Of a DNA stretch of 64,000 nt, positions 26,500-47,430 are shown piece after piece (within the stretch, counting starts at the first letter, position 1; every line of letters starts with the position of its first letter). Origin of the DNA: an uncultured Isosphaeraceae bacterium (GTDB lineage: Bacteria > Planctomycetota > Planctomycetia > Isosphaerales > Isosphaeraceae). The stretch spans positions 372,001 to 436,000 of the forward strand of contig CAMFLR010000004.1 of NCBI GenBank assembly GCA_945957605.1, in the 5' to 3' direction. A program made the translations under genes and the position numbers. Under the pieces are notes generated by a model that saw nothing but the letters and a program-made list of their open reading frames with translations, had not been told where the DNA came from and ran no database searches.

Positions 26500-26889
26500 T
26501 CAAGGCGCGGTCGTTTGAAACTGCGTTGGATCAAGAGGCGGAAGCGTGTTGTCGGTCGTCGGCTCGACCGCCACAACCCATTGGTTTGACGTGGTTGCAT
26601 CGAAGTTGTAAGTCACCGAAAAACGCTGATCGGCCGACAACACCACGACACACTGATACGAGTTCGACGGGGGGTAGCCAACCTCGAGCGCGGCCAAGGC
26701 TTGTGATAACGCAGCCTGCGCAGGGAGTCGAGCTGCATCCTGGCTAACTCGAGCGGAACGAGCCTCCTCAATGCGAATCATCTGGGCGATCTCACGCGAT
26801 GCCTGGCCCCAGTAGCCAACAAACGCGACGAGAAACACTACGACGAGCACCATCGCAAATCCGCGCCGTCGGTTTGATCGTACGATCAT
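26500..26889 (-). CDS. GspK-like short minor pseudopilin
   Basis: 129 aa from ATG 26889. Head VRSNRRRG, then FAMVLVVVFLVAFVGYWGQ: a prepilin-type leader in which +5 is Leu rather than Glu, as is characteristic of GspK, the pseudopilin that caps the tip. True GspK is about 300 residues with a large helical domain; here only about 90 residues follow (IRIEEARSARVSQDAARLPAQAAL and a beta tail). It is the last gene of the minus-strand operon, two bases after the GspJ-like stop. The gene order matches gspH-I-J-K. Confidence 0.65.
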   Translation of the reverse strand: MIVRSNRRRGFAMVLVVVFLVAFVGYWGQASREIAQMIRIEEARSARVSQDAARLPAQAALSQALAALEVGYPPSNSYQCVVVLSADQRFSVTYNFDATTSNQWVVAVEPTTDNTLPPLDPTQFQTTAP

Positions 26890-26891
26890 GA

Positions 26892-27461
26892 TCAAGGGTC
26901 CGGAATGAACAGCGTGTAACTTCTCGTATGATCACCCAGTATCGAGCCATCGCTTACTTTTTCGAGCACGCGATGCGAAAGAGTCAGATCAATCCGCACG
27001 CCCGAGACTGATGAACCATCTTGCATGAGAGGCATCGTCGTCGACTTTGATTGAAAGTCTGAGACAAGCGTTGCCACCACGCGCTTACCGCTAGAATCGA
27101 TCCGAAAAAGTTTCCCGGGATCAGCATTATCGATTGCGTAGGTGACGTTTTGCTGCACGCCGTTGCCCTGGTCGAGAGTCATACTCAGCGAAGTGCCATT
27201 GGCCTGCACATTTTGGTAACGCGAGTCAGTTTGCGTGCCGCTGGGAGCGGCGAGCGATCCGATGTCTCGGGACAGGGCCTCGGCTGCGAGATTCGCTTCC
27301 TGAGCGAGTCTCGCTCGGGCAACCGCTGAAAGAGCAGGGGGGCCAAAACCACTCCAGGCATTGCACAACAGCATCATCAGTACGACGATGAGAGTCGCCG
27401 TGACCATGATCTCGGCGAGTGTAAATCCACGGCAACGTTGGCCCTGATTCCTCACTCTCAT
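26892..27461 (-). CDS. GspJ-like minor pseudopilin
   Basis: 189 aa. Leader NQGQRCRG, then FTLAEIMVTATLIVVLMMLL with Glu at +5, followed by an amphipathic helix (ARARLAQEANLAAEALSRDI) and a beta-rich C-terminus ending in SGVRIDLTLSHRV. This is the usual layout of GspJ. Its start overlaps the stop of the golvesin-like pseudopilin by four bases (ATGA type), and its stop precedes the GspK-like gene. Confidence 0.82.
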   Translation of the reverse strand: MRVRNQGQRCRGFTLAEIMVTATLIVVLMMLLCNAWSGFGPPALSAVARARLAQEANLAAEALSRDIGSLAAPSGTQTDSRYQNVQANGTSLSMTLDQGNGVQQNVTYAIDNADPGKLFRIDSSGKRVVATLVSDFQSKSTTMPLMQDGSSVSGVRIDLTLSHRVLEKVSDGSILGDHTRSYTLFIPDP

Positions 27462-28270
27462 GGCTTGCGCACCACGTTTGCACGACGTGCCATACCTAAC
27501 GATGAACTTGGCGAGTCACTATCGAGCAACGGAGAAATCGTCACTTCATTGCGGACGCCAATACGAATCGAATCCGCGACGACTGGTCCGACCAGCGAGC
27601 CCGAGAGCGAGACTTGTAGCGTGCTTCCCAAAGTCACATTGCCCGCGTCGCGCCAGGCGTCGCTATTGGGCTGCGTTGCGGATGCGAGCGACACGGTTTG
27701 CGTTGCAGTTCCGCTCGTCAGCACAAGCTGGGCATCCGAAGGAATCGAAATCGCCACAGGCCAGCATATCATCAGCCGATACGTACCAGGAGTGATGGTG
27801 CCAAAATCCCACGTGGCCTTGGCACCGTTGACTGCCATTGCGAGAACGCGACATGAACCGTTCGTCGCATCGTCCTGCGACTGTGTCGCCCATGTGCCAG
27901 TGATGGTCGCCGAGGCGTCGTCAATGCTTGATTCTGTGAGCAATTGCGTAAGGCTGCTGGACTTCACACTCGATTGAAATGGCGCAGCGAGCCCGAGCCG
28001 TCGCACCCAGAGGTCGCTTGAAGGTTGCAACACGGCCACAGGTGGTTCTGAGATAATTCCCGCTGCAGGAACAGGCGAGCCGTCGATGATTCTCGATCCC
28101 CGGATGACCTGAGGGTTATCGGATCCGATTGCCGTCGATTCGATGCGATAAAGCAACTTCTGCTGCATCATGACAAGCGGAATGATGCCGGCGAGAACGA
28201 CGCCTAGCACCACAATCGCCACCTGGACTTCAAGAAACGTAACCCCCGCGCGTCGGGGCGACGCAATCAT
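27458..28270 (-). CDS. GspI-like pseudopilin with golvesin-like C-terminal domain
   Basis: 270 aa. Leader SPRRAG, then VTFLEVQVAIVVLGVVLAGI with Glu at +5 as in GspI-type minor pilins. The ordinary pseudopilin would end near residue 110; here residues about 115-250 form a beta-sandwich that reads like the golvesin C-terminal / xly-type carbohydrate-binding-like domain: ATITGTWATQSQ, ATWDFGTITPGTYRLMICWP, then a TQTVSL strand, GNVTL and VVADSIRIG. VVADSIRI is the family hallmark. The domain may bind sugar or protein at the pseudopilus tip. Start and stop overlap the neighbours by four bases each. Confidence 0.78.
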   Translation of the reverse strand: MIASPRRAGVTFLEVQVAIVVLGVVLAGIIPLVMMQQKLLYRIESTAIGSDNPQVIRGSRIIDGSPVPAAGIISEPPVAVLQPSSDLWVRRLGLAAPFQSSVKSSSLTQLLTESSIDDASATITGTWATQSQDDATNGSCRVLAMAVNGAKATWDFGTITPGTYRLMICWPVAISIPSDAQLVLTSGTATQTVSLASATQPNSDAWRDAGNVTLGSTLQVSLSGSLVGPVVADSIRIGVRNEVTISPLLDSDSPSSSLGMARRANVVRKP

Positions 28271-28740
28271 GGCGTCGGCTCCAGAGTGGGAGTGAGAATC
28301 AGGCCATCGAACGCCACCATGCTGGTGAGCTGACCGGTCTGGTCCATCGTCACGATGCCGGTGTAGATCATGTTATTCGGGTGCGTGGCAGTGGCGACGA
28401 ACGACTGGCTGTCGGCCGAAAGCGAAAGCGTGTACGCATAATAGGTCGTTCCCGAGACAAGTGAGATTTCGATGAGATCGTTCTCATCCCCTGTGCCCGG
28501 CCGTAGTTCTTCGAGCGTGCCATAGCGTCCATGTTGCAGGTGATAAAACCGCTCGGCTGCCCAGATGGCGCGTAGGTGACTTGCGGCGACGTCGAGCTTC
28601 GACTGTTCGAGCGCCTGTTGGAACCGAGGCACAGGAAGCGCGATGAGAACTCCCATGATCGTCATCACCAGGATGACTTCCAGGAGGCTGAACCCCTTGC
28701 GGAGCCGCTTGCCAGTTGTTGAAGGGTCAATCCTCATCAT
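28267..28740 (-). CDS. GspH/GspG-like prepilin
   Basis: 157 aa from ATG 28740 (or the tandem ATG 28737) behind GAGGAAGAG; the frame extends further upstream to 28788, overlapping gspF, but those residues are not leader-like. Head TTGKRLRKG, then FSLLEVILVMTIMGVLIALPVP with Glu at +5, a long helix (RFQQALEQSKLDVAASHLRAI) and a GspG-like Y(H)LQHGRYGTLEEL segment. GspG-like more than GspH-like in the helix; it lies where gspH is usually found. The predicted calcium-site loop is not clear. Confidence 0.8.
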   Translation of the reverse strand: MMRIDPSTTGKRLRKGFSLLEVILVMTIMGVLIALPVPRFQQALEQSKLDVAASHLRAIWAAERFYHLQHGRYGTLEELRPGTGDENDLIEISLVSGTTYYAYTLSLSADSQSFVATATHPNNMIYTGIVTMDQTGQLTSMVAFDGLILTPTLEPTP

Positions 28741-28784
28741 CTCTTCCTCAGTTGAGTCAGCGAGCAAATGCCATTCGCCATGGG

Positions 28785-29879
28785 TCACTTCACCTTACCG
28801 GCCATTTCAAACATAGGCATATAAATCGCGAGCATCAAACCGGCAATCGTGGATCCCATGAAAACGATGATGATCGGTTCGAGCAATTTTGACACTTTTC
28901 CGATCAAACCTTCCATCTTCTCCTTGTAGTACGGAGAAAGTTGCTCCATCACGAGCGCGAGTTGGCCTGATTCTTCGCCGGTGCGAACCATGTTGGTTAA
29001 CATCGACGTGAAAAGGTTCGTTTCACCAAGGGCAGCCGCCAGCGGTCTGCCGGCTGCGACGCGCCCGCGCACCCGTTCCAGGGCGTCCCGATAAATCGGC
29101 GAATTCTGAAAAATGCCTCCGAGCGTCTGCAATGTTTCGAGCATCGGCACACCAGCTTTGAGCAAGAGTCCGAGGTTCGAAGCAAAGCGGTACATCGCCA
29201 TTTGCACGAGCAGAGGGCCGATCATGGGCGTTACCATCCCCACGCCGCCCACGTTTCTCTTACCGGCTTCGGTTTTCATATAGCGCTGAAAGCCAAAACC
29301 ACCAACGATAATCCCTACGAACGTATACGGGCCATATTTCACCACGCCTGCCGATGCGTCGACGACGAATTGTGTGATAGCCGGCAGTTCGGCGCCCATG
29401 TCCTTGAACATGCCGGCGAACGTGGGAACGACCATCCAGAGCATGACCGTCACCGCGAGAATGGCAATCACGATGAGCACGAGCGGGTACATGAGCGCGC
29501 CCGTCACCTTTCGGCGCGTTTCGCGGGAATCTCGAATCTGCTTGTTGAGTTCGAGCAACACGCCGCCCATCTGTCCCGTCATTTCGCCGGTGCGGATAAC
29601 TTCGATCCAGTACGGCTCAAAGAGCTGAGGGTAAGCGGCAGCAGCGCCGTTGAATGATGAGCCAGCCGCCACGCGCCCGGCGATTTCGCCCAGCACGTTG
29701 CGCAGCTTGATACTTTCGCACTGATCGGCGGCCTGGCGCAGCCCCTGCAACAGCGGTGTCCCCGAGGTCACAAGCGTCGAAAGTTGCTGGAAGAACGACA
29801 TCTTGTCGTCCATCGAAACCTTCTTGTGCGGCTTGCTCGAAACCCGGGCATGTGCGATGACGAATTCCTCGAACGACAC
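28785..29879 (-). CDS. gspF: Type II secretion platform protein GspF (PilC)
   Basis: 364 aa, GTG start set by CAGGAG six bases upstream. Two GspF domains: first about residues 25-155 (FFQQLSTLVTSGTPLLQGL, GEMTGQMGGVLLELN) and second about 228-355 (FASNLGLLLKAGVPMLETL, GEESGQLALVMEQLS), each followed by membrane helices (LIVIAILAVTVMLWMVVP and IIVFMGSTIAGLMLAIYMP). This is the inner-membrane platform that couples GspE to the pseudopilus. The usual length is about 400; the N-terminal cytoplasmic head is short. It lies about 77 bases after gspE. Confidence 0.93.
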   Translation of the reverse strand: MSFEEFVIAHARVSSKPHKKVSMDDKMSFFQQLSTLVTSGTPLLQGLRQAADQCESIKLRNVLGEIAGRVAAGSSFNGAAAAYPQLFEPYWIEVIRTGEMTGQMGGVLLELNKQIRDSRETRRKVTGALMYPLVLIVIAILAVTVMLWMVVPTFAGMFKDMGAELPAITQFVVDASAGVVKYGPYTFVGIIVGGFGFQRYMKTEAGKRNVGGVGMVTPMIGPLLVQMAMYRFASNLGLLLKAGVPMLETLQTLGGIFQNSPIYRDALERVRGRVAAGRPLAAALGETNLFTSMLTNMVRTGEESGQLALVMEQLSPYYKEKMEGLIGKVSKLLEPIIIVFMGSTIAGLMLAIYMPMFEMAGKVK

Positions 29880-29956: not shown

Positions 29957-31684
29957 TCAATCATCTTCCGACATGGTCACGCTGAGTGCAGTCTCGAGGC
30001 TCGTCTGACCTGTACGCACTTTTTCGAGCGCACTATCGACCAGGAGCTTCATCCCTTCCGATCGTGCAGCTTCGCGCAACTCGGGAAGGGGAGTGCGAGC
30101 CTGGATCAGCTTCGCCATCAGCGGAGTGATTCTCACCACCTCGAAAATGCCGACGCGGCCGCGATAACCAACGCCACGGCAAGCCTGACAACCCTTTGGC
30201 TGGAAAAGTTGCGAACCAACTTCCATTCCGTAGCGTGCCGCGGTGTCATAGTCGCACGCATAAGGCTCGCGGCATTGCTTGCAGAGCTTGCGAACGAGAC
30301 GCTGAGCTTCAAGAACACGCAGCGTCGATGCGAGCAGGAACGGCTCGATTGCCATGTCGACGAGACGACTCACGGCAGAAAGGGCGTCGTTCGTGTGAAT
30401 CGTCGAGAGCACGAAGTGGCCCGTGAGTGCGGCGCGCAAACAGATCTGCGCAGTCTCCTGGTCTCGAATTTCGCCCACCATGATGACGTCGGGGTCCTGC
30501 CGCAGGAACGCACGAAGCGCCGACGCGAATGTCAGGCCGATGCTCGACTTCACCTGAACCTGATTGAGGCCCGCGAACTTGTACTCGACCGGGTCTTCGA
30601 CCGTACAAATGTTCGTCTTCGGATCGTTCAGAAGATTCAAGCAGGAATAGAGCGTTGTACTTTTGCCGCTACCGGTCGGGCCGGTTACGAGCATCAGGCC
30701 GTGCGGCATGTGAATCGCTTCGATCAAGTCGTTCGACTGGCGTTCGTCGAGACCGAGATTCGTAAGCTGCAGCGGAATACTGCCCTTGTCGAGCAGTCGC
30801 ATGACCATCTTTTCACCGAACACCGTTGGTACGGTGTTCACACGAAGGTCGATACGACGCTCGCCGGTACGAATCGCGATTGCACCGTCCTGCGGGAGCC
30901 GTTTTTCGGCGATGTCCATCTTCGCGAGAATCTTGAAACGCGAGATGATCTTGATGAACTGAGAGCGAGAAGGAGGTGCGAGTTCTTGAAGAGTACCGTC
31001 GATGCGGAGCCGAATCTTGCACGAATCCTCGAAGGTTTCGAGGTGAATATCGCTCGCGCCACCGCGAACGGCCTGTTCGAGAATCTGATTCACGAGACGA
31101 ATCATTCGACCGTCGCGACCTGGCGGCGGCGGTTGATCGATCCTTAGAACTTCGTCCTCGTCCTTTTCGACATCGTCGTCATCGTTCTGGTCGAAGTCCT
31201 CAGAGCCGGTCGGGTAGGTTTCTTCCTGCGTGTTGCTAAAGAGCGCGTCAAGCTGCTCCTCGAGCACGGATATTTGCGCGACGACGGGCCGAACCGAGAG
31301 ACCGGTCAGGAGTTGCACCTCGTCGAGCACGAGCAGTGCGTTTGGATTCGCGATCGCCAGTTCCATCACCGTGCCGGTGATCATGGTTGGCACGATCATT
31401 TGTTCGCGCAAGAACTTTTCCGGCAGCAAGCGCCCGAGCTCGGCCGACGGCTTTTCGTCTTCGCACGGCTGGTGAAGCGGAATCGACAGATGCTTCGAGT
31501 AGATCTCGGCGATTTCGGGTTCGGTCGCGAGCCCGAGTCTCACCAGCAACCGTTCCGCGGATTCGTTCTCGTTCGCTTTCGAAACGCGGTATTCTTCCAT
31601 CTTCGCCGCGTCGATGCGTCCTTCGCGTCGAAGAAGCGCGAGGATGAGCGACTCGGCGGCGTCGGTCTTTTCGGTACGGATCAT
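29957..31684 (-). CDS. gspE: Type II secretion ATPase GspE (PilB-type)
   Basis: 575 aa cytoplasmic ATPase that drives pseudopilus assembly. N-terminal MshEN-like domain (about residues 5-150, EEYRVSKANENESAERLLVRLGL), an acidic linker (SEDFDQNDDDDVEKDEDE near 161-178), then the ATPase core with Walker A GPTGSGKST (335-343), Asp box VEDPVEYKF, Walker B VIMVGEIRD (400-408), His box STIHTNDA and the zinc tetracysteine LCKQC and GCQAC (Cys 468, 471, 499, 502). All key residues are present. Its start overlaps the GspC/PilP-like gene by four bases. Confidence 0.95.
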   Translation of the reverse strand: MIRTEKTDAAESLILALLRREGRIDAAKMEEYRVSKANENESAERLLVRLGLATEPEIAEIYSKHLSIPLHQPCEDEKPSAELGRLLPEKFLREQMIVPTMITGTVMELAIANPNALLVLDEVQLLTGLSVRPVVAQISVLEEQLDALFSNTQEETYPTGSEDFDQNDDDDVEKDEDEVLRIDQPPPPGRDGRMIRLVNQILEQAVRGGASDIHLETFEDSCKIRLRIDGTLQELAPPSRSQFIKIISRFKILAKMDIAEKRLPQDGAIAIRTGERRIDLRVNTVPTVFGEKMVMRLLDKGSIPLQLTNLGLDERQSNDLIEAIHMPHGLMLVTGPTGSGKSTTLYSCLNLLNDPKTNICTVEDPVEYKFAGLNQVQVKSSIGLTFASALRAFLRQDPDVIMVGEIRDQETAQICLRAALTGHFVLSTIHTNDALSAVSRLVDMAIEPFLLASTLRVLEAQRLVRKLCKQCREPYACDYDTAARYGMEVGSQLFQPKGCQACRGVGYRGRVGIFEVVRITPLMAKLIQARTPLPELREAARSEGMKLLVDSALEKVRTGQTSLETALSVTMSEDD

Positions 31685-32418
31685 GATCTGCCTCCTGTTG
31701 GTCGTCTCGTCGACCTGGTCTTTGCCGCATTGTTCGTCGCGGCCTTCGCGGGTGTAGGCGCCTTCGCCTTGGGCATTGGCCGGTCTACCGGCGCAGAATC
31801 AGACGGCTTGAAATTCAAAACCGCAAACGTGTTCTTATATCGCAGCGTTGCCGTACGGCGGCCCACGCTCATGAGCTTTACCGGCCCGCTCAAACCAGCG
31901 AGCGAGTCGATAACCTCCCCTTCCATAAATGTCCGATCATTCATCGTTGCAAGCGGACGCTGGCCACCAAGCAACGTGGCCGTTAGCCGTACTTTTTCGA
32001 CCACTTCCGCACGCGCCATCGCGGCGTCTTTGGCCTTTGCGTTAGCTTCGTTCACTTTCTGTTTGACATAGCCTGACACGCGGTTAGCGAGCGTCTTAAC
32101 GTATTCAAAGCGAGGCTTGTTACGAGTGCTCGCTGATTTATCTGATTTCGCGTCGGCCGACGACGCCCCTTTGGTGGCTGCTTTTCCCGCAGCGGCAACA
32201 GCGGTGGGCGGTTTTTCGGTCTTTGGAACGGGAAGCGTGAACGGATCGCGCGCCGATGCATCACCAATCTTCGGCTCCAGCAAGCCACCGTCGATTTTCT
32301 CGACCTTCGACTTACTTGCGCCTGGCTTGGGTGGGGTTTCAGAATAATTCCATGTTTGCCACCCCGCAATCGAGGCGATCACAACCACAGGAAGTGCGTG
32401 CGATGCAGGGGTTCTCAT
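31681..32418 (-). CDS. PilP/GspC-like periplasmic linker protein
   Basis: 245 aa. Short N-terminal membrane anchor (HALPVVVIASIAGWQTW), then a long Lys/Ala/Ser-rich disordered stretch with the motif ASARDPFTLP, which in PilP and GspC binds neighbours, a Lys-rich helix, and a small beta domain near residues 145-205 (VRLTATLLGGQRPLATMNDRTFMEGEVI ... RRTATLRYKNTFAVLNF). That domain resembles the GspC homology region / PilP fold with its conserved VIDS and YKNT turns, which docks on the secretin N0 domain. Its Lys/Arg-rich tail (RRPTGGRS) is unusual. Operon position after PilO fits. Confidence 0.6.
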   Translation of the reverse strand: MRTPASHALPVVVIASIAGWQTWNYSETPPKPGASKSKVEKIDGGLLEPKIGDASARDPFTLPVPKTEKPPTAVAAAGKAATKGASSADAKSDKSASTRNKPRFEYVKTLANRVSGYVKQKVNEANAKAKDAAMARAEVVEKVRLTATLLGGQRPLATMNDRTFMEGEVIDSLAGLSGPVKLMSVGRRTATLRYKNTFAVLNFKPSDSAPVDRPMPKAKAPTPAKAATNNAAKTRSTRRPTGGRS

Positions 32419-32419
32419 G

Positions 32420-32953
32420 TTAGGCGGCGACCCCCATCACGGTCATCTTGAGCGTGAGCCCGCCGCTTCGGCCGTTCGAAGGGGCGATGTTCAACGTATC
32501 GATGCGCAAGAGCCGGGGATTCTTTTCAACCCAGGCGAGCACGGCGTCGAGGTCGGGGAAGTTTCCTTCGAGGTCAACCTGCAAGATGACGACCTCGAGC
32601 GGGCCATGTCTCAGCGCGCCGCGAGGCTCGAGTCGAATGAGTTTAACCGGATAATTGCGAACGCCGGCGAGGAGGTATTCCACCCATTCGTTCGTATCGG
32701 TTTGATTCGGCACGCGTGATTTGAAGTCCTCGGAAACCGCACGGAGCGAATCGATCTCACGGGCCAGCGTGAAGTGACGCTCGGCTTCCGCGCGATTCTT
32801 GGAGGCTGCCTCAATCTGATCGCGTAAGGGCGAGAAAACGAGGAGGTACCAAGCGAGCAATACGGCGCCGCCAAGGAAAATCCGAAGTTGCAGCGGGTCG
32901 CGCAGGCGGCGTTGAAAATTTGCAAGCGCGGGGCCGAGACGTCCGGTGTTCAT
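32420..32953 (-). CDS. PilO/GspM-like inner-membrane protein
   Basis: 177 aa. Cytoplasmic head of 25 residues, one helix (LRIFLGGAVLLAWYLLVFSPLR), a coiled coil (QIEAASKNRAEAERHFTLAREIDSL), and a C-terminal ferredoxin-like beta-alpha domain (VKLIRLEPRG, VVILQVDLEGNFPDLDAVLAWVEKN, RLLRIDTLNI), which is how PilO and GspM are built. With PilN it would form the periplasmic alignment subcomplex. It lies 12 bases after the PilM/N-like gene. Confidence 0.78.
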   Translation of the reverse strand: MNTGRLGPALANFQRRLRDPLQLRIFLGGAVLLAWYLLVFSPLRDQIEAASKNRAEAERHFTLAREIDSLRAVSEDFKSRVPNQTDTNEWVEYLLAGVRNYPVKLIRLEPRGALRHGPLEVVILQVDLEGNFPDLDAVLAWVEKNPRLLRIDTLNIAPSNGRSGGLTLKMTVMGVAA

Positions 32954-32964
32954 CGCATAGCGTC

Positions 32965-34491
32965 CTATTTAGCGCCCTTGGCTTTGGGGGCGGCTTTCGG
33001 CTGGTTTTTGGCAGCCGCTTTTACCGGCTGGCACACAACGCTGAAGTTGGCCGTCGCCAGACCGTTACCGCTCGAGTTGATCCAGCGCAGGTCTGACATT
33101 TCGACGTCGGGGAAGTCCTTCTTGAACAGGGGCGCATCACGCAAGTTCTTGAGGAATGCGTCGATTTGCGGCGGCATCGTCCCTGTTCGCGGAATCGGCG
33201 ACGCGAAGTTGAACGTCAGAATTCGCTTAGGCCGCACGCGCTGTCCCGGCGACTCAAGCTCATATGATCCGGTCACAGAGACAATCGCGAGCTCGGGCGT
33301 CAATCTTGCCGCCAATGCGCGATGATAGGCGGTCCAGAGGATACGAGTTCCCATGAACGACCTGACCGATTCGATTCGTTCTTCGAGGTCCTTCTTTTCC
33401 GCGGCGAGCTTGTCGCTCGAGAGCTTGCTCGCCCAGCTGTACTTTCGATCGTCGGCGCGGGTTTGTCTGTCGACTCGCTTGTGGCTTTCAAGGTGACACG
33501 CCAACCAGATCGTCGCAGCGATTAGCAGAACCGCGCTGATGGCCGCTTGCCCCCACGGAAAGATGTCGAGAAACCTCGGCTGCCCTTGTAGCAGGCGCAC
33601 GAGGTTGAAGGGTTCGGCTTGCGTCTTGGCGGTGAGCACCAATCCGCGCGCGCTTTCAACGTCGTTCAGCTCAGGCCCTTGCATGTGCAGGAGCTCGAGC
33701 TCTTCCATCCCCGGTGTTTCGGCGAAACTACTTGCAAGCGAAAGGTCGGGACGACCGTGGATCATCACGGTGCTCGCTTCGCTCTTCAGTCCGCTCTGGC
33801 GGCCGAGCATTCGTACCGATGCAACGGCGGCGATGATCGCACAGGCTTCGGTGCCTGGCGTCATCTCGAAAGGGCGCCAGCGAATCGGCAAGTCGTCGCG
33901 TGTTGATAAGACTGCAAGGCCTTGGTCGCCACCCAGGAAGACGCGAATGATCATCTTCGCCTTGCGAGGCGGCTTGTGGTCGCGTGAGGCGACACGCATC
34001 AACGCGCAGGCAGCGGGTTCGGCTCCCGTTGGTCGGAATTCGCTCGCTTCAAGTGCGGCGACGACTCCCGTCAGATACTTTTCACGGCAGCAAACGAGGC
34101 CAGCCAGTTTCTGTTGATTGAAAGAATGCTTGACCATATCGACCGTCATGTCGTCGATCACGACGGCGGACGACTGGATCATTTCGTGCAAAAGGGTCTG
34201 CGGTGTTTCTTTGGATTGCTTATCAGTGATCGTTCGAGTGAGGAGAAACAGGCGGAGAGTTGGCAGGCCAAGGATGATTTTGACTCGCGACCGGTCCTGG
34301 TCGCCGACGCATTCGGTGAGAACTTCTCGGACGACTGCGGCGAGGTTTTCAGGCTTGTATGGAACCGAGATCAACTTCGGTTCTTCGCTGCGTCCGGTTC
34401 CCGTTGAAATCACAGCGGCAGTGATTTCATGTTCGCCCACATTCAGGCCGACCCGGGTTTCACGTAACAGCTGGGGGAGTTCGAGGTGCAC
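32965..34491 (-). CDS. GspL/PilM-PilN-like fused cytoplasmic-periplasmic protein
   Basis: 508 aa, GTG start behind AGGGA. Residues about 10-300 form an actin-like (PilM/GspL) cytoplasmic domain: TRVGLNVGEHEITAAVIS, SRVKIILGLPTLRLFLLTRT, a MIIRVFLGGDQGLAVLSTRDDL strand pair and ACAIIAAVASVRMLG. A membrane helix follows (AAISAVLLIAATIWLACH, near 318-338), then a coiled coil (KLAAEKKDLEERIESV) and a PilN-like periplasmic domain ending in a Pro/Lys/Ala tail. PilM and PilN are separate genes in type IV pili; the fusion is like GspL. It begins just after the terminator hairpin at 34551. Confidence 0.72.
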   Translation of the reverse strand: MHLELPQLLRETRVGLNVGEHEITAAVISTGTGRSEEPKLISVPYKPENLAAVVREVLTECVGDQDRSRVKIILGLPTLRLFLLTRTITDKQSKETPQTLLHEMIQSSAVVIDDMTVDMVKHSFNQQKLAGLVCCREKYLTGVVAALEASEFRPTGAEPAACALMRVASRDHKPPRKAKMIIRVFLGGDQGLAVLSTRDDLPIRWRPFEMTPGTEACAIIAAVASVRMLGRQSGLKSEASTVMIHGRPDLSLASSFAETPGMEELELLHMQGPELNDVESARGLVLTAKTQAEPFNLVRLLQGQPRFLDIFPWGQAAISAVLLIAATIWLACHLESHKRVDRQTRADDRKYSWASKLSSDKLAAEKKDLEERIESVRSFMGTRILWTAYHRALAARLTPELAIVSVTGSYELESPGQRVRPKRILTFNFASPIPRTGTMPPQIDAFLKNLRDAPLFKKDFPDVEMSDLRWINSSGNGLATANFSVVCQPVKAAAKNQPKAAPKAKGAK

Positions 34492-34623: not shown

Positions 34624-35076
34624 TTACGAACCGAACGGGTTGATCACGGACAGGGTCTGGTCGCTCGAGATCGTGCTGTTCGTCGTGTCGAAACCGTCCT
34701 GGGTGAAGGTGACGGTGTAGGCACCGAAGGACGACGTGGCGGCCGTACGGGTAAGGGTGAGCGTCCAGGTCGGGTTGCCGGCCGTGGTGGTGGTGGTGAT
34801 GGCACCCGGGGGGTCGAAGTACTTGGGGTTCGGGATCGAGATGTCGAGGTCGGTCACCGTGGTGGCGTAGATACCGTTCTTGGCGATGAACCGTTCTTCA
34901 GCGGTGCGGATGGCCGAGAGGTAAGCGACGGCTTCAGAAGCCTTCGACCGTTCGACCGAGTTGAGGAACTTGGGCACGCCGAAGGCGGCGAGGACGCCGA
35001 TGATCACGATGACCACGGCCAATTCAACCAGCGTGAACCCCTTACGAAACTTCTTCGACTTCATTGCCTGGATCAT
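34624..35076 (-). CDS. gspG: GspG-type major pseudopilin / type IV pilin
   Basis: 150 aa from ATG 35076 behind GGAG; the open frame runs further upstream but those residues are not leader-like. Leader MKSKKFRKG, then FTLVELAVVIVIIGVLAAFGVPKF with Glu at +5, a helix (RSKASEAVAYLSAIRTAEERFI) and a beta C-terminus with IYATTVTDLDI. The C-terminal half is very rich in Thr (ITTTTTAGNPTWTLTLTRTA). The long helix and AIRTAEERFIAKNGIY place it with GspG/PilA. The hairpin downstream and the structured leader upstream suggest it is expressed at a higher level than the rest. Confidence 0.88.
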   Translation of the reverse strand: MIQAMKSKKFRKGFTLVELAVVIVIIGVLAAFGVPKFLNSVERSKASEAVAYLSAIRTAEERFIAKNGIYATTVTDLDISIPNPKYFDPPGAITTTTTAGNPTWTLTLTRTAATSSFGAYTVTFTQDGFDTTNSTISSDQTLSVINPFGS

Positions 35077-35567
35077 GTTGCTAGCTCCGTTGTGAATCGC
35101 CCCGGACAAAATCAGAAACCTGAACCGTCGAGCCGTAGAACGCCACGGCTCTGCCCACGAAGGAACACGCGTCCCCGTAGACTTCTTTTCCTCGTTGGCC
35201 GATTCGTGGCGACACGCCACTCGACCTTCATTGCGATGACTCATCGCATCGGAATCCGCGACCGTTTGCTTCGTCGCTCTTTCATTCGGCGGCTGTCAGA
35301 TTCGCCCCCGAACTCATCTCGTCGTCACTCGCTGCGTCGCGTTTCCGTCGTTCACACTCTTATGTAGGCCAGTTTAAAAACCATGTCAAATCAGAGGCAA
35401 AAATTCGCAAGATTATTTCGCGATCCGAGAATGCGTCTTCCGCAAATTCATTGCCTGAATGAACTTATGCCAAGCACAATTCAAGACGTTCCGATTCTGA
35501 CCATTTATTTGGTCGAATCTGAGACAATTCGCAAATGTGATGCTATCCTAAGCCCTTTGGCGTGCAT
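35077..35567. other. Long leader/spacer between the secretin and gspG
   Basis: 491 bases without a gene on the same strand between the gspD stop and the gspG start. It holds a 7-bp stem GAGCCGT/ACGGCTC (35130-35136 and 35145-35151, 8-base loop) some 60 bases before gspG, and from about 35370 to 35560 a stretch clearly richer in A and T than its surroundings that probably includes the gspG promoter. No convincing terminator of gspD is seen. Confidence 0.5.
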
Positions 35568-38189
35568 TTAGCGATCGAACGGCGCATTGGGCCGCGGCTT
35601 GGCGTCGGGAGGCAGCAATAGTCGCTGACCAAACGTCGGATTGCCCGATCGCGGCAGGATCTCGCGATTGAGATAGAGGATCTCGTCTGCGCGATTCGCG
35701 TCTCCCAGCCGATCGCGGGCGATGCTTCGCAGAGTCTCGGAAGTCCCGACAACGTGCGTGATCGACGTGCGGGCCTGGGGAATGGCATCAATAGTACGAG
35801 GCGGCCGACCGGCGGGAGCTGTCGTCGTCATGACATGCGACGCCCGCTGAGTTTGATTGTCGGCCCGTCGGGCGAGCACCGCGTCGACACCGGCAGCGAC
35901 CGTCATTCCATTGGAGAGCCGCTTGGTGCGCGAGTCGACGCGGAACCGGACGTCGAGGTCGTCCTCGTGTGGGATCGAAATGCGGTCGCCAACTCGAAGC
36001 GACTCCGGCCGCGCACTGATCTCGCGGTTCGCGTACCAGAGCGAGACATAGAACTGCCCCGTTCCATAATACTGGCGCGAGATCGTCCAAAAATTCTCGC
36101 CAGCCTTCACGACATGGTCGAGCGCATCGTTTTGAGAGAACCCCGTGCGTGCGATCGAGCCGTCGGCGATTTTCTCTTCGCGAGCCGGCGCGGCAGCCGG
36201 GCTGGCCGGCGCTGCGGGTGAAGCCGGGGTTGCCGGCGCCGTCGCATCAGCACGCGGCGTTGCGGCTCGGGTGGTCCCTGTGGCCGGTCGAACTGTGGCC
36301 ATGGCGGCGAGTGCGGTCGTCGGATCGCCCACGCTGGCGGCGGTTCGCACACGATTGATCGCAGCGACCGTTTCCGCGGCCGCAGCGACGGGGTCGGGTG
36401 CGACACCGGCGCCACCGGTCCGCAAGATGTGCGGCGTGAGCATGACGATCAGTTCGGTCTTCGTCTTTGTCTTCTGCCGCATACCGAACACCGTGCCAAG
36501 CACGGGAGAGCGATGCACGCCGATCAATCCCTGGAAGCTGTTGTCGTCCTCGTTTTCGATAAGACCGCCGATCACGAGCGTCGTGCCGTCGGGAATCATG
36601 ACGTTGGTGGTCAGCTCGGCAGTGTTCGCGCTGGGAACGCCGTTGTCGCCAATCGCACCAGTGGAACGTTCCGGATGAATTTCCATGCGGATCATGCCGT
36701 CGGACGAGACGAACGGACGCAGGCGGAGCAGGGTACCTGTATTAAGGAACTGAATGTTTTGGACGTTGGTCGTGAGGTTGGTGGTCACGGTGCTATAGCC
36801 AAGCCGCTGACCGAGCTGAATCTCCGCGCGCTGCTTGTTGAGGACCAGCAACCGCGGACTCGCGAGCACGCGAGTTTCGCCGATGGTTTCAAGCGCCTGG
36901 ATGAACCCGGAGTTGTTCTTACTCACCCAGCCAAACTTGATGCCGTTTGTCGTTGAGTTGAATCCACCGGTTTCCGTACCACCATTAATGCGGCCCGCAG
37001 CCGCCGCGGCGACCGCTGTCGCAGCGGAAGGAACCGATAGCAATTTCGCCGTGTTGAAGCCCGAGTTAGCGGCGAGGTCGACACCGTTACCGATCGTGCC
37101 GAGCGTTTTTCCCAGGCTGTCAACGGCGGAGTAGTTCACGCCAAGGTCTTTGTTGCGGGTCAACACGACCGAAACGATGACGGCTTCCACCAAGACTTCG
37201 ATGGGCTGAACGTCGAGACGCGCGACGATTTCGTCGACTGCCTTGAGGTTGTTCTCGTAGTCGCGAACGATGAGGACGTCGCCACCTGAAAGCGAGTTAC
37301 CGCCGGAAGTGCCTCGACCGCCACCACCGCCACCGCCGCCACCACTGCCGCCGCTGCTTCCACCCCCGCCGCCGCTACCACCGCCGCCACCGCCGCCCGA
37401 GGCACCGCCGCCACCACCACCGCCACTGCCCGTGACGCTGGCTGGGTTAAAGGTCGGGCTTTCGTTAATGCCTTCGCGGCTATCGGGCGTCGACGTCATG
37501 TTGCCGTCTGGACTGAGCAGGTTGGTGATCATCGTCATCACGTCGCCTGCACGAATGTAATTGAGGCGATAGATGCGCGTGGCGAGCTTCTGGTTGTAGT
37601 TCGCGAGTTGTTTGAACTCGTCGGCGGTATAAACGAATACGAGCCCTTCCTCCTTCTGGGAGTTCAGGTTCGCAAGCTTGAGGATTGCGGTGAGCGCCTG
37701 CGGAACGGTCGCGTTCTCGAGGTTCGCAGTCACGCGCCCCGTAACGCCCGGTGAAACCATGATGTTCAGACCACCTTGGCGGCTGAGAAGCTCGAGCGCA
37801 CGCCGGACGTCAAGGTCGTCCATATGGAGCGTGATTCGTCCGTTCGCATCGACCTTGATTTGCCTCTCGGCATCGGTCAGGTCTTGCGTCTTCTCAGTAG
37901 GAGGGGGAGGCGAGATCGTGCCCGCTCCGGGTTTCGGCGGCAAAGGGACGAGCGTCGGCCCTTCGGCTGCCTGCGCGACCAGGTCGGGTGCGCGGAGTTG
38001 AAGAGGCACCTTATCGGTCGCTTCTTGCGCGCGGGCAACCACACTGGCAAAAGCACAGACGATCAGCCCCGCGAAGCATGGATTCGATAACCGAGCCACA
38101 AAACCCCTCCGCAGTCGAAATCCACTTTCGCGCGAACACTTGCCGTTATGCTGCGCTGCGCGGATTTTCGCGGCGAAGCGAAGATCCAC
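35568..38189 (-). CDS. gspD: GspD/PilQ-type secretin with two LysM-like domains
   Basis: 873 aa outer-membrane secretin of the second system, GTG start with AGGA before it. Signal peptide (CFAGLIVCAFASVVARA), STN-type N-domain (about 110-150, RITLHMDDLDVRRALELL), a secretin_N domain (about 204-325) interrupted by a 45-residue poly-Gly/Ser loop (254-298), the secretin core (about 430-592: VLASPRLLVLNKQRAEIQLG, IPDGTTLVIGGL, ELIVMLTPHIL), an Ala/Pro/Thr-rich linker (600-675), and two LysM-like modules: VVKAGENFWTISRQYYGTGQF to RVGDRISIP (about 692-742) and VVGTSETLRSIARDRLGD to FGQRLLLP (about 812-862). Secretins rarely carry C-terminal LysM; here they would bind peptidoglycan or a cell-wall glycan. 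It may be its own transcription unit. Confidence 0.88.
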   Translation of the reverse strand: MDLRFAAKIRAAQHNGKCSRESGFRLRRGFVARLSNPCFAGLIVCAFASVVARAQEATDKVPLQLRAPDLVAQAAEGPTLVPLPPKPGAGTISPPPPTEKTQDLTDAERQIKVDANGRITLHMDDLDVRRALELLSRQGGLNIMVSPGVTGRVTANLENATVPQALTAILKLANLNSQKEEGLVFVYTADEFKQLANYNQKLATRIYRLNYIRAGDVMTMITNLLSPDGNMTSTPDSREGINESPTFNPASVTGSGGGGGGGASGGGGGGGSGGGGGSSGGSGGGGGGGGGRGTSGGNSLSGGDVLIVRDYENNLKAVDEIVARLDVQPIEVLVEAVIVSVVLTRNKDLGVNYSAVDSLGKTLGTIGNGVDLAANSGFNTAKLLSVPSAATAVAAAAAGRINGGTETGGFNSTTNGIKFGWVSKNNSGFIQALETIGETRVLASPRLLVLNKQRAEIQLGQRLGYSTVTTNLTTNVQNIQFLNTGTLLRLRPFVSSDGMIRMEIHPERSTGAIGDNGVPSANTAELTTNVMIPDGTTLVIGGLIENEDDNSFQGLIGVHRSPVLGTVFGMRQKTKTKTELIVMLTPHILRTGGAGVAPDPVAAAAETVAAINRVRTAASVGDPTTALAAMATVRPATGTTRAATPRADATAPATPASPAAPASPAAAPAREEKIADGSIARTGFSQNDALDHVVKAGENFWTISRQYYGTGQFYVSLWYANREISARPESLRVGDRISIPHEDDLDVRFRVDSRTKRLSNGMTVAAGVDAVLARRADNQTQRASHVMTTTAPAGRPPRTIDAIPQARTSITHVVGTSETLRSIARDRLGDANRADEILYLNREILPRSGNPTFGQRLLLPPDAKPRPNAPFDR
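37296..37430 (-). repeat. Poly-glycine coding repeat inside the secretin
   Basis: About 45 codons, nearly all GGN with a few AGC/TCC, giving a Gly/Ser run (residues 254-298 of the secretin) within the secretin_N domain. On the plus strand it appears as a purine-free CCACCGCC repeat. Such runs are prone to length change by slippage. Confidence 0.85.
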
Positions 38190-38435: not shown

Positions 38436-39059
38436 TTATTCGGGAAGAGGCGTTCCCGGGAGGTTTGAGGGCATGGTCGTCAGCGGTGCCGGGGGCGATG
38501 CGAACGGGCTCGGAGCTTCGCCGGCGCTCGGCGGAGCCGCCTCATCCGGTAGAGAAACATCCATCATGCCACCGCCATTGAGCGGATCGCCGGCCATCGG
38601 GTTCCAGCGCGAGCGAATTGGATCGATTCGCCGCGAGAGAACCGGCTCCATCGGGATGATCGTCCGCGGCTGCTCTCCGAAGTTGAGCGAGACGCGCTGA
38701 AGGAGTGCCTGTGCCACCATCTCGTCACCGAGATCGCCAATTTTCACGACGATCATCGCCATCGTGTTACGCGGCTTGAGCGTGATCAGCGCCTTGCGGC
38801 CATCGACGGTGCGGGCGTTGATAATGATGATCTCGCCGTCGCGCTCGCAGTGAACCTCGTAGTAGCCAAGGTCTGCCATCGCCTCGATCAGCGAGCCGTA
38901 AACCTGCGGCACCGTTTGCTTATAAATCTGGCTCGAATAGCAGAGAAATGTGTGATACGCGTAGTCGGTCGGGTCGATCCCCGGCAGCCTGCCGATGGAC
39001 TCGCAACCGGTTACACCGATAAGCGGCGGGATGGCTAACAACATCGCCCAGCGTTTCAT
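38436..39059 (-). CDS. DUF3568-like lipoprotein
   Basis: 207 aa from ATG 39059 behind GGGGAGCGGG; longer frame to 39350 is not leader-like. Signal ends in a lipobox (IGVTGC), so it is an outer-membrane lipoprotein. The domain about 30-125 resembles DUF3568: VYGSLIEAMADLGYYEV, RDGEIIIINARTVDGRKALITLKP, AMIVVKIGDLGDEMVAQALLQRV. The tail is Pro/Ala/Ser rich. DUF3568 function is unknown. It lies upstream of the secretin gene, but a terminator separates them; a pilotin-like role is only an inference from position. Confidence 0.7.
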   Translation of the reverse strand: MKRWAMLLAIPPLIGVTGCESIGRLPGIDPTDYAYHTFLCYSSQIYKQTVPQVYGSLIEAMADLGYYEVHCERDGEIIIINARTVDGRKALITLKPRNTMAMIVVKIGDLGDEMVAQALLQRVSLNFGEQPRTIIPMEPVLSRRIDPIRSRWNPMAGDPLNGGGMMDVSLPDEAAPPSAGEAPSPFASPPAPLTTMPSNLPGTPLPE

Positions 39060-39373
39060 ATCCCGCTCCCCGCGCGTCGCACACCGACGCCCCCGGTCCG
39101 CTATCATCCGCCATTGCGTAACCATCCGTGCGTCACGCTTATTCGTTAAAATCGGCGAATACCGTCTCCAACTTGAGCATGTCGGACACGATCGCTCCCT
39201 GTCGCCATCATGGCAACGACTTGACCAGCCGGCCCAAGGATGATGCAATTCAGGGAAGTCTCGGCCGAAGCGTCTCGTCCGCTTCGACCACCTTCCGCCC
39301 GAACACCGTATCCGCGTGAACCATGCGGACGCCAAGTTTCGAGCCCCCACCCTCGCCTCGACCGAAAGCCAGC
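39060..39373. other. Divergent promoter region of the lipoprotein and cytochrome-like genes
   Basis: 314 bases between divergent starts. An inverted repeat TATTCG/CGAATA (39140-39145 and 39156-39161, 10-base spacer) lies in its AT-rich part. Nothing else stands out. Confidence 0.4.
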
Positions 39374-44981: not shown

Positions 44982-47336
44982 CTAGCGCTGAGCCTGCGAA
45001 ATCTCTTCGAATGGCGCATTGAGGATGGGATATTTTGCCCAGTCGCGGAAGTCGAAGTGCCACCACTCAACCTCGTTCACGGTGAATCCTTCCGCCTCCA
45101 TGCTCCGCCGCAAGAGGTCGCGATGCCAGCGTTGGAGCGAAGTCCCGCCCGGATAATCCGGACTCGATCGGCTCGAAAATTCGTCGTACCCGCCAACCAT
45201 CTCAATCGGCTTGCCGGTGCTGAGGTCGTAGAGAGTCAAATCGACCGCGCAACCTCGATTGTGCTTCGATCCCTTCGCCGGATTCGCCACGAAGCCGCGG
45301 CCTGATTGCGGCGTCGCGTCCCAGAACATTTTTGTCACGTACCAGGGACGATACGCGTCGTGAATCAACAGCCCGAGTCCGCGTTCCTTGAGCTTCTTGT
45401 GTGCTTTCACAAGCGCTTCGGCCGCGGACCGTTGCATAAATGCTCGAGCCGATGAGTAGAACGGCGTCTGCAGAAAGTTGTTGTTCGTGGCATAGCGAAT
45501 ATCGAGCTTGATCGTCGGGTCGAGACTCACGAGTTCGACCAGCTCTGGCTTGCGAAACGACGCTGGCTCAAGCGGCGGGCGTCCTTTCAGAGCTTCGGGG
45601 CGAAGTTCCGCGACGGGACGCATCGGCGTGATGTGAAACGTCGTGCCATCGTCGCCGTCGATCTTTCGGCGCGCGAATTTTACGCCCGCCGCCTCAGCTT
45701 CAACGGCTCGTCCGGTCTCATCACGTTTGAAGCGAACGTGCTCACTCGCATAGAGCCGGCTGTTGTCGGGAAAACGGAAAACGTCGGGCGAAACCTCTTC
45801 GAGCCGGTCGAGAAAGAACCATTCGATGAGCACGAACAACTTGCCGTCATTTTCCAGAACGAACAGCGTGTTGTGATCCCATCCATATTCACCAATCAAC
45901 CCGCGCCAGGCATCAGGAGCAGCGGCGGGCTTGGTTCGCTGCACTTTCGCGAACTTCGTATCGCCTACGGTGAATCCGGTTGGTGTCGGTTTGAGCTTCG
46001 TGCCAAAGCCAAGCGTATCGTCGGTCACAAAAGTATCGCCTTGCTTGCGCACTTCGAGGCGGAGGCCACCTGTTGAACGAGTGGAAAACAGGCGGCCGTC
46101 GCGTGCGACGAGATCGAGTATCCCCGCGTCGGCCTTGTAGACTCCATCGACTTCTTGCGCCTCGCTTGAAGCGAGCGGTTCGGTGGTTTCGATCGAGGGC
46201 AGGGGAGCGTTTTGCTTCTGTGCGAGCAGCAGCCGGAATGCCGCGTTGCTGATTCGGCCGGCGACGCTATTTGCACAATCCTTACTAATGATGACCACCA
46301 CGCCGAGTTGATCGTCGGGCAAGATTGACACATCCGTCGCGAATCCATAAATCGCGCCGTTGTGGCCGACATGGCGATGGCCATCGAGCAGGGCGAGGTT
46401 GAAGCCAATTCCGAAGCCGGTTTTCGCGTCCTTCGCGGCGAACTGCGGCGTCCACATCGCCTTGAGCGTTTCCGGCTTCACCGCGCCCGTGCCGCCGTCG
46501 AGCATCGCGATGATGAAACGCCCCATATCGAGCGAGTTCGAGTAAAGATTGCCCGCCGGCCCCGTCCCAAGTAAAAACGTCGGCGAAGGAAACGTGCGGC
46601 CATCGTAAGTCCACATCACGCTATCGGCGACGCGCTCTTTTTCCGCGGCCGTCGGTTCAAAGGTCGACGCGTGAAGCTTGAGCGGTTCGAGCACCGCACG
46701 TTTGACGTATTTCGCGAACGGCTCGCCTTTCACCTTTTCAACGACGCGGCCGACGACCGCGATTCCCGCGTTCGAATATTTCTCGCGCGTCCCTGGTGCG
46801 TGAATCAATTCAGTCGAGTTCAAACTGGCAACCGTAGCGGCAAGCGATGGCTCGGTAGGATCAAAATAATTACCAACCGGCGACTCGCGCACGAGTCCCG
46901 CACGGTGCGACATGAGATGCCGCAGCGTAATCGGTTTGTCGAAACGGCTCTTGGGCGCGAAGTCGGGAAGGTAGCGCGTCACCGGCGCATCGAGGTCGAG
47001 TTCGCCCTTTTCGACGAGTTGCATCACGGCCAGGTCGGTGAACAGCTTCGACACCGATCCCACGCGGCAAAGCGTCTCCGCACTCGCTGCCGTTCCTTCC
47101 TTCTCCTTTGCTTTTCCAAAGCCGCGTGCCCATGTGATTTCGCGCCCCTCGACAATCGCCATCGAAACCGACGGCAGATTCTGCAGCTTCATCTCGCGTT
47201 CGATGAATGCCTCGAGTTTTGCAACGATCGGCTCGAGTCCAGTTCGAGGTTTGATCACCTCCTGAGCCGGAATCGCGCCACCCCAGATCGCGCAAAATAT
47301 CAGCGGCAGAGTTCGACGCACTGCGAGCCGGAACAT
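44982..47336 (-). CDS. Serine hydrolase fused to VanX-type D,D-dipeptidase
   Basis: 784 aa from ATG 47336 (GGAG eight bases upstream). Signal peptide (VRRTLPLIFCAIWGGAIPAQ); a class C beta-lactamase/D,D-peptidase domain about 30-380 with SVSK (Ser 94, Lys 97), EKYSNAG tyrosine motif and HVGHNG in the place of KTG; a middle beta region; and a C-terminal M15D/VanX domain (about 590-784) with the zinc ligands SKHNRGCAVD and EWWHFDF and the family's VTKMFWDATP and GGYDEFS. All metal and catalytic residues of both enzymes are present, so it is probably bifunctional in cell-wall D-Ala-peptide breakdown. Each half alone is common; the fusion is not. Confidence 0.87.
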   Translation of the reverse strand: MFRLAVRRTLPLIFCAIWGGAIPAQEVIKPRTGLEPIVAKLEAFIEREMKLQNLPSVSMAIVEGREITWARGFGKAKEKEGTAASAETLCRVGSVSKLFTDLAVMQLVEKGELDLDAPVTRYLPDFAPKSRFDKPITLRHLMSHRAGLVRESPVGNYFDPTEPSLAATVASLNSTELIHAPGTREKYSNAGIAVVGRVVEKVKGEPFAKYVKRAVLEPLKLHASTFEPTAAEKERVADSVMWTYDGRTFPSPTFLLGTGPAGNLYSNSLDMGRFIIAMLDGGTGAVKPETLKAMWTPQFAAKDAKTGFGIGFNLALLDGHRHVGHNGAIYGFATDVSILPDDQLGVVVIISKDCANSVAGRISNAAFRLLLAQKQNAPLPSIETTEPLASSEAQEVDGVYKADAGILDLVARDGRLFSTRSTGGLRLEVRKQGDTFVTDDTLGFGTKLKPTPTGFTVGDTKFAKVQRTKPAAAPDAWRGLIGEYGWDHNTLFVLENDGKLFVLIEWFFLDRLEEVSPDVFRFPDNSRLYASEHVRFKRDETGRAVEAEAAGVKFARRKIDGDDGTTFHITPMRPVAELRPEALKGRPPLEPASFRKPELVELVSLDPTIKLDIRYATNNNFLQTPFYSSARAFMQRSAAEALVKAHKKLKERGLGLLIHDAYRPWYVTKMFWDATPQSGRGFVANPAKGSKHNRGCAVDLTLYDLSTGKPIEMVGGYDEFSSRSSPDYPGGTSLQRWHRDLLRRSMEAEGFTVNEVEWWHFDFRDWAKYPILNAPFEEISQAQR

Positions 47337-47430
47337 GGTCATCTCTCCGAGGTCGCTCCCTGGAAAGACGTAGCCTAACGCGACCGTCGCGCGAACGCCA
47401 TTCATCAGCGTCGGTTGCGCATTCAGTCGG

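Follow-up and report, generated by a model that had tools for sequence, protein, structure and literature searches.

A secretin with two C-terminal LysM domains as a family-specific architecture of the Isosphaeraceae

The window analysed here, a stretch of 64,000 nucleotides from the genome of an uncultured Isosphaeraceae bacterium, encodes a secretin of the PilQ/GspD type at 35568–38189, the position correctly given in the earlier note, on its minus strand. Window coordinates given below likewise refer to the minus strand. The gene begins with a GTG start codon and forms one open frame of 873 amino acids. The hydrophobic core of a signal peptide (38025–38084; residues about 36–55, ...GLIVCAFASVVARAQ), assigned from the sequence, overlaps a predicted helix at residues 37–50. 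It is followed by an N0/STN domain (37620–37841; residues about 117–190), recognised by a Pfam STN match to residues 145–186, by the structural model and by a match to the N0 domain of PilQ (4ar0), and by a Secretin_N domain (37203–37580; residues 204–329 in Pfam) that is broken by a glycine-rich loop. The secretin barrel domain (36420–36896; residues 432–590) matches PF00263 at 1.6e-36, above the cut-off (125.9 versus 27.5 bits), with PilQ 6w6m as best fold match. About 280 residues lie beyond the barrel: a low-complexity linker rich in Ala, Pro and Thr (36126–36413; residues 593–688), delimited by its sequence and low pLDDT, a first LysM domain at residues about 690–742 (LysM1; 35970–36122 for residues 690–740), a spacer that is disordered in the AlphaFold model (35769–35951; residues 747–807), and a second LysM domain at residues about 810–862 (LysM2; 35610–35762 for residues 810–860). 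The distance from the end of the barrel to LysM1 is about 97 residues, which corrects the 75 residues previously claimed for the linker. The layout of N0, one Secretin_N and secretin domain is that of the PilQ of type IVa pili (Pfam, model, 6w6m as top fold match), and the full-length predicted model is closest in fold to Vibrio cholerae PilQ (6w6m). The protein reaches neither the cut-off for PilQ (TIGR02515; 206 versus 284.35 bits) nor that for GspD (TIGR02517; 199 versus 351 bits).

The genes downstream of the secretin encode, in order, a GspG/PilA-like major pilin or pseudopilin (34624–35244), a 508-amino acid protein with one transmembrane segment and no Pfam match that is probably GspL/PilM-like judging from its position (32965–34491), a GspM/PilO-like protein (32420–32953), and a 245-amino acid protein (31681–32418) that has no significant Pfam family and is putatively GspC/PilP-like, given its position and an HR-like stretch. 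These are followed by a PilB/GspE ATPase (29957–31684), a PilC/GspF protein (28785–29879), and three prepilin-like proteins together with a T2SSM-like protein (26500–28788). A prepilin-like protein at 27458–28270 carries a Golvesin_C domain (PF25275), an unusual feature for a minor pilin. Just upstream of the secretin, the window encodes a DUF3568 lipoprotein-like protein (38436–39350; lipobox LIGVTGC), a possible pilotin-like partner. The genome contains three secretins, namely the LysM-tailed one, a distant one and, in an earlier part of the window, one of the Tad type. Two PilT-family ATPases are encoded elsewhere in the genome, so that the channel may belong to a pilus capable of retraction, to a secretion system, or to both at once.

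Both C-terminal segments that had been read as LysM-like prove to be genuine LysM domains. The evidence for LysM1 is direct: Pfam matches residues 692–740, and the isolated segment scores 23.8 bits for PF01476, above the cut-off of 20.9 (20.6 bits in the context of the whole protein). Its A2 profile matches PDB entries at 4.6e-10, and the NCBIfam LysM model PRK11198 matches residues 688–742 at 3e-11, with a score under that model's own cut-off. LysM2 gives no Pfam match as an isolated segment and is recovered through its orthologues: a profile built from these matches LysM proteins in the PDB (best 1.2e-6) and aligns to the LysM1 profile (hhalign 97.9%), and seven of the ten segments in the LysM2 orthologue alignment match PF01476 themselves. 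AlphaFold, run on a 21-sequence alignment, predicts the beta-alpha-alpha-beta fold for both domains with pLDDT values of about 93–97. In Foldseek searches the best PDB matches of the tail model are LysM structures, headed by the fungal chitin-binding effector Ecp6, while the closest PDB relative by profile is the potassium-binding protein Kbp of Escherichia coli. A chance or low-complexity match was considered and is ruled out by the profiles, hhalign, the Pfam matches of the orthologues, AlphaFold and Foldseek. The domains keep the usual core motif and are under purifying selection, with dN/dS ratios of 0.10–0.33 in the three closest pairs versus 0.31–0.62 for the linker; a more distant pair, the window secretin and L092, is near saturation. 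Both LysM domains are thus confirmed as real, C-terminal to the barrel and conserved.

The second peculiarity of the protein is a Gly/Ser loop (37299–37433; residues 253–297, 34 of 45 being glycine) that splits the Secretin_N domain, as had been noticed before. Its DNA is an imperfect GGN repeat, and its length varies between strains as anticipated: at the corresponding position, three congeners have runs of 13 (L034), 10 (L081) and 6 glycines (L082). Gly/Ser-rich loops of about 100 residues occupy the same position in Secretin_N (about residues 276–400) in L065 and L067, two secretins without LysM; the loop and the LysM tail are therefore independent features.

The secretin was found in 18 of 45 genomes of the Isosphaeraceae, the family to which the window's genome belongs judging from its relatives Singulisphaera, Aquisphaera and Tautonia; this rules out the quirk of a single genome. 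At least one complete in-frame LysM domain is present in 16 of the 18 proteins, nine of which have two and seven one. The reading frame of the secretin in genome G005 stops within LysM1, and in Singulisphaera sp. GP187 (G010) a frameshift precedes the tail, whose LysM is intact in an overlapping frame (L038, L060, L095); this is either a sequencing error or a real truncation, and S. acidiphila, a close relative, has an intact secretin. According to the profiles built here, no LysM tail occurs in the nearest orthologues outside the Isosphaeraceae (L061, L062, L065 and L067) or in the orthologues from 119 genomes across the Planctomycetota. A routine architecture throughout the phylum is ruled out for the sampled orthologues, and a tail gained once in the Isosphaeraceae is compatible with the tree built from the secretin part. 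The search for secretin–LysM fusions covered Planctomycetota, and among the secretins examined the LysM-tailed form was found in the Isosphaeraceae only. Many orthologues outside the family carry TPR-like tails instead (among the best 25 of 41 matched families); the orthologous planctomycete secretins L041, L043–L045 and L123–L141 have such C-terminal tails in place of LysM, recalling the TPR pilotins. No viral relatives of the secretin were found. An earlier description of a LysM-tailed secretin was not encountered in the literature searched, which was partial. For Planctomycetales, Mahajan et al. (GBE, 2020) reportedly described the loss of peptidoglycan genes as well as extensions of outer-membrane proteins of type II secretion, and the C-terminal extension may have been mentioned there. 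The LysM-tailed secretin is a real, conserved and family-specific architecture in which a known channel carries a known domain in an unusual place.

Where the module came from is suggested by its few relatives in the same organism. The 8.8 Mb genome encodes only three LysM proteins: the secretin, a protein adjacent to mraW and a NodT-type efflux protein. The second of these is a Pro-rich protein with a single transmembrane segment and a C-terminal LysM pair, encoded directly downstream of mraW (G000:C2:693354–693947; L046, 5468–7972, plus strand), an adjacency kept in those Isosphaeraceae loci whose upstream DNA extends far enough for this to be assessed. A second family of the class (L201–L204) has the LysM-pair protein between mraW and an ftsI-type penicillin-binding protein (PBP), and Pfam finds Transpeptidase in these loci and MraZ in L204. 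The mraW-adjacent protein is a candidate for a divisome-linked protein in bacteria that lack FtsZ, one that has outlasted FtsI. The NodT-type efflux outer-membrane protein bears its LysM at the C-terminus (G000:C9:68804–69082; L047, 6469–8592, minus strand); further NodT-type efflux outer-membrane proteins (L195, L197–L200) have one C-terminal LysM and no second. The LysM of these efflux channels is of the LysM1 type. In the tree of the tails a branch with 87/88 support separates the mraW-linked copies from all secretin tails, which fits one transfer, in either direction. Given the position beside mraW and an ftsI-type PBP, the module is probably an old component of the division and cell-wall (dcw) cluster, of which two types of outer-membrane channel later received copies, and copying from the LysM-pair membrane protein of that cluster to the secretin is the most likely direction.

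A further twist is provided by genus g15, five genomes of which (G051, G015, G052, G050 and G049) encode exported proteins of 387–520 amino acids (L189–L193) that consist of half an N0 domain, the linker and the LysM pair, with the barrel gone. By sequence comparison the half N0 domain is clearly derived from the secretin, with 54% identity over 50 residues to L090 (E 3e-11), and in the tree of the tails the pore-less proteins nest among the secretins. In four of the five genomes no secretin of the LysM-tailed type was detected; the LysM tail seems to have outlived its channel, and the retention of the pair suggests a use other than pore assembly. This observation bears on the idea that the tail chiefly helps the secretin to reach its place and assemble, standing in, in cis, for a pilotin or TsaP, while glycan binding would be a secondary trait. 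The TPR proteins PilF and PilW are pilotins of type IV pili, and the TPR-like tails of the orthologues outside the family sit at the same place as the LysM pair, which speaks for such a role; so does the LysM domain of FimV, which promotes secretin assembly according to reference 101 as it is quoted in PMC7545093. With the pore-less derivatives set against it, we regard an assembly function as improbable.

We lean, with modest confidence, towards reading the LysM pair as a periplasmic glycan tether that is built into the channel and replaces AMIN domains and TsaP. The C-terminus of the secretin would leave the barrel on the periplasmic side, judging from the topology of the GspD S-domain, and the flexible linker would allow the LysM pair to bind a presumed ligand, a GlcNAc-containing polymer of the periplasm. 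A ring of 12–15 subunits would present 24–30 LysM domains, which may fix the channel in the envelope and do in cis the work of the N-terminal AMIN domains of PilQ together with a separate TsaP. The module would have been copied from the LysM-pair membrane protein of the dcw cluster, and a related single LysM is also present on the efflux channel. The established topology of such proteins would place the LysM domains of the mraW-adjacent, NodT-type and secretin proteins in the periplasm. It thereby also weighs on a quite different proposal, in which the tail would face outwards on the cell surface, with chitin in the surroundings or peptidoglycan from other bacteria as its ligand, and aid the attachment of polymer degraders. 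LysM domains do bind chitin oligomers, and Ecp6 heads the structural matches of the tail; however, the same module is found on the mraW-adjacent transmembrane protein and on efflux-channel C-termini that are predicted to be periplasmic, and in known systems the C-terminus of the secretin lies on the inner-leaflet side of the outer membrane (PMC9239104). A surface-exposed tail is accordingly the least probable of the readings, and very unlikely.

GlcNAc polymers are the usual ligand of LysM, and the earlier note had proposed that the tail could anchor the channel in a planctomycete cell wall. The half of that proposal which concerns the domains holds, in that they are real, C-terminal, conserved and under purifying selection; the other half assumes peptidoglycan, yet neither a PBP transpeptidase nor MurG was found in the genome, the one MurG-like match being a diglucosyl-diacylglycerol-synthase-like enzyme. 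A survey of 2025 reports that the Pirellulales, Isosphaerales and Gemmatales have lost murA, murC, murD, murF, murG, murJ and ftsW (PMC12283558). Ordinary peptidoglycan may be absent, since MurG, PBP transpeptidases and, according to that published survey, the genes for lipid II are missing; a tether to peptidoglycan as first envisaged is plausible but unproven. The window also encodes a beta-lactamase-family domain fused to a D-Ala-D-Ala dipeptidase (M15; 44982–47405) in this genome without PBP transpeptidases.

LysM domains can serve roles other than glycan binding, and the baseplates of phages and eCIS employ them structurally. The pair might therefore have been repurposed after peptidoglycan was lost, for protein–protein contacts or ion binding, so that the channel would dock onto a wall made of protein or onto other LysM-bearing partners. 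The missing MurG and PBP are in keeping with this, as are Kbp as best PDB relative, the structural LysM domains of baseplates and the occurrence of one module on three envelope proteins, which could mediate a common docking; that several orthologues have one LysM only counts against the tether. Purifying selection on domains that keep their usual core motif speaks against repurposing, as does the peptidoglycan context of a module beside mraW and, elsewhere, an ftsI-type PBP. Moreover, peptidoglycan has been detected in Gemmata obscuriglobus (PMC5147048), whose order belongs to the very group with the reported gene loss (PMC12283558). We consider repurposed docking doubtful but next in line, and the tether the most likely explanation. 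More tentatively, the Isosphaeraceae may keep a different or residual GlcNAc polymer in the periplasm, to which the LysM module of old dcw origin would stitch outer-membrane channels, secretin and efflux alike. The tail is found in a lineage with disputed peptidoglycan, in which the synthesis genes are apparently lost and few LysM domains retained; those that remain belong to envelope proteins, of which two are channels, and this prompts the question to what the secretin is fastened. Being small and predicted to fold well, the tail could itself be used as a probe for a peptidoglycan-like polymer in Isosphaeraceae cells.

In the secretins known so far, anchoring is the task of N-terminal AMIN domains or of LysM proteins separate from the channel; the LysM pair at the C-terminus of the channel represents another solution. 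Anchoring to peptidoglycan is attributed to the AMIN domains of PilQ, the LysM of FimV and TsaP (PMC5285504, PMC9239104, PMC7545093); AMIN is usual in PilQ but not universal, with 27 sequences lacking it (PMC7545093). The window secretin resembles PilQ in its N0 (STN) domain, single Secretin_N and barrel, and PilQ provides both the best fold match and the best NCBIfam subfamily score; it differs in having no N-terminal AMIN, in its linker and LysM pair, and in the glycine loop within Secretin_N. Its score for GspD is near that for PilQ, and the neighbours in the operon are GspG-, GspM-, GspE- and GspF-like. GspD, however, has domains N1–N3 where only one copy of Secretin_N was found in the window secretin, and the short S-domain of GspD is replaced by the LysM pair. 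With TsaP, the LysM protein that clamps PilQ (e.g. 6ve2), it shares a LysM domain near the secretin ring that is likely to act as an envelope anchor, but TsaP is a separate protein in proteobacteria whereas here the LysM domains are in cis. The notion of a built-in TsaP fits the gene content: no AMIN domain was found in the whole genome, and with only three LysM proteins, the other two being the efflux channel and the mraW-linked protein, there is no separate LysM protein such as TsaP. FimV/HubP, finally, is likewise a membrane-anchored LysM protein linked to secretin assembly, and its layout of a transmembrane segment, a long Pro-rich region and LysM resembles the mraW-adjacent protein; its LysM is not fused to the secretin, as it is in the Isosphaeraceae.
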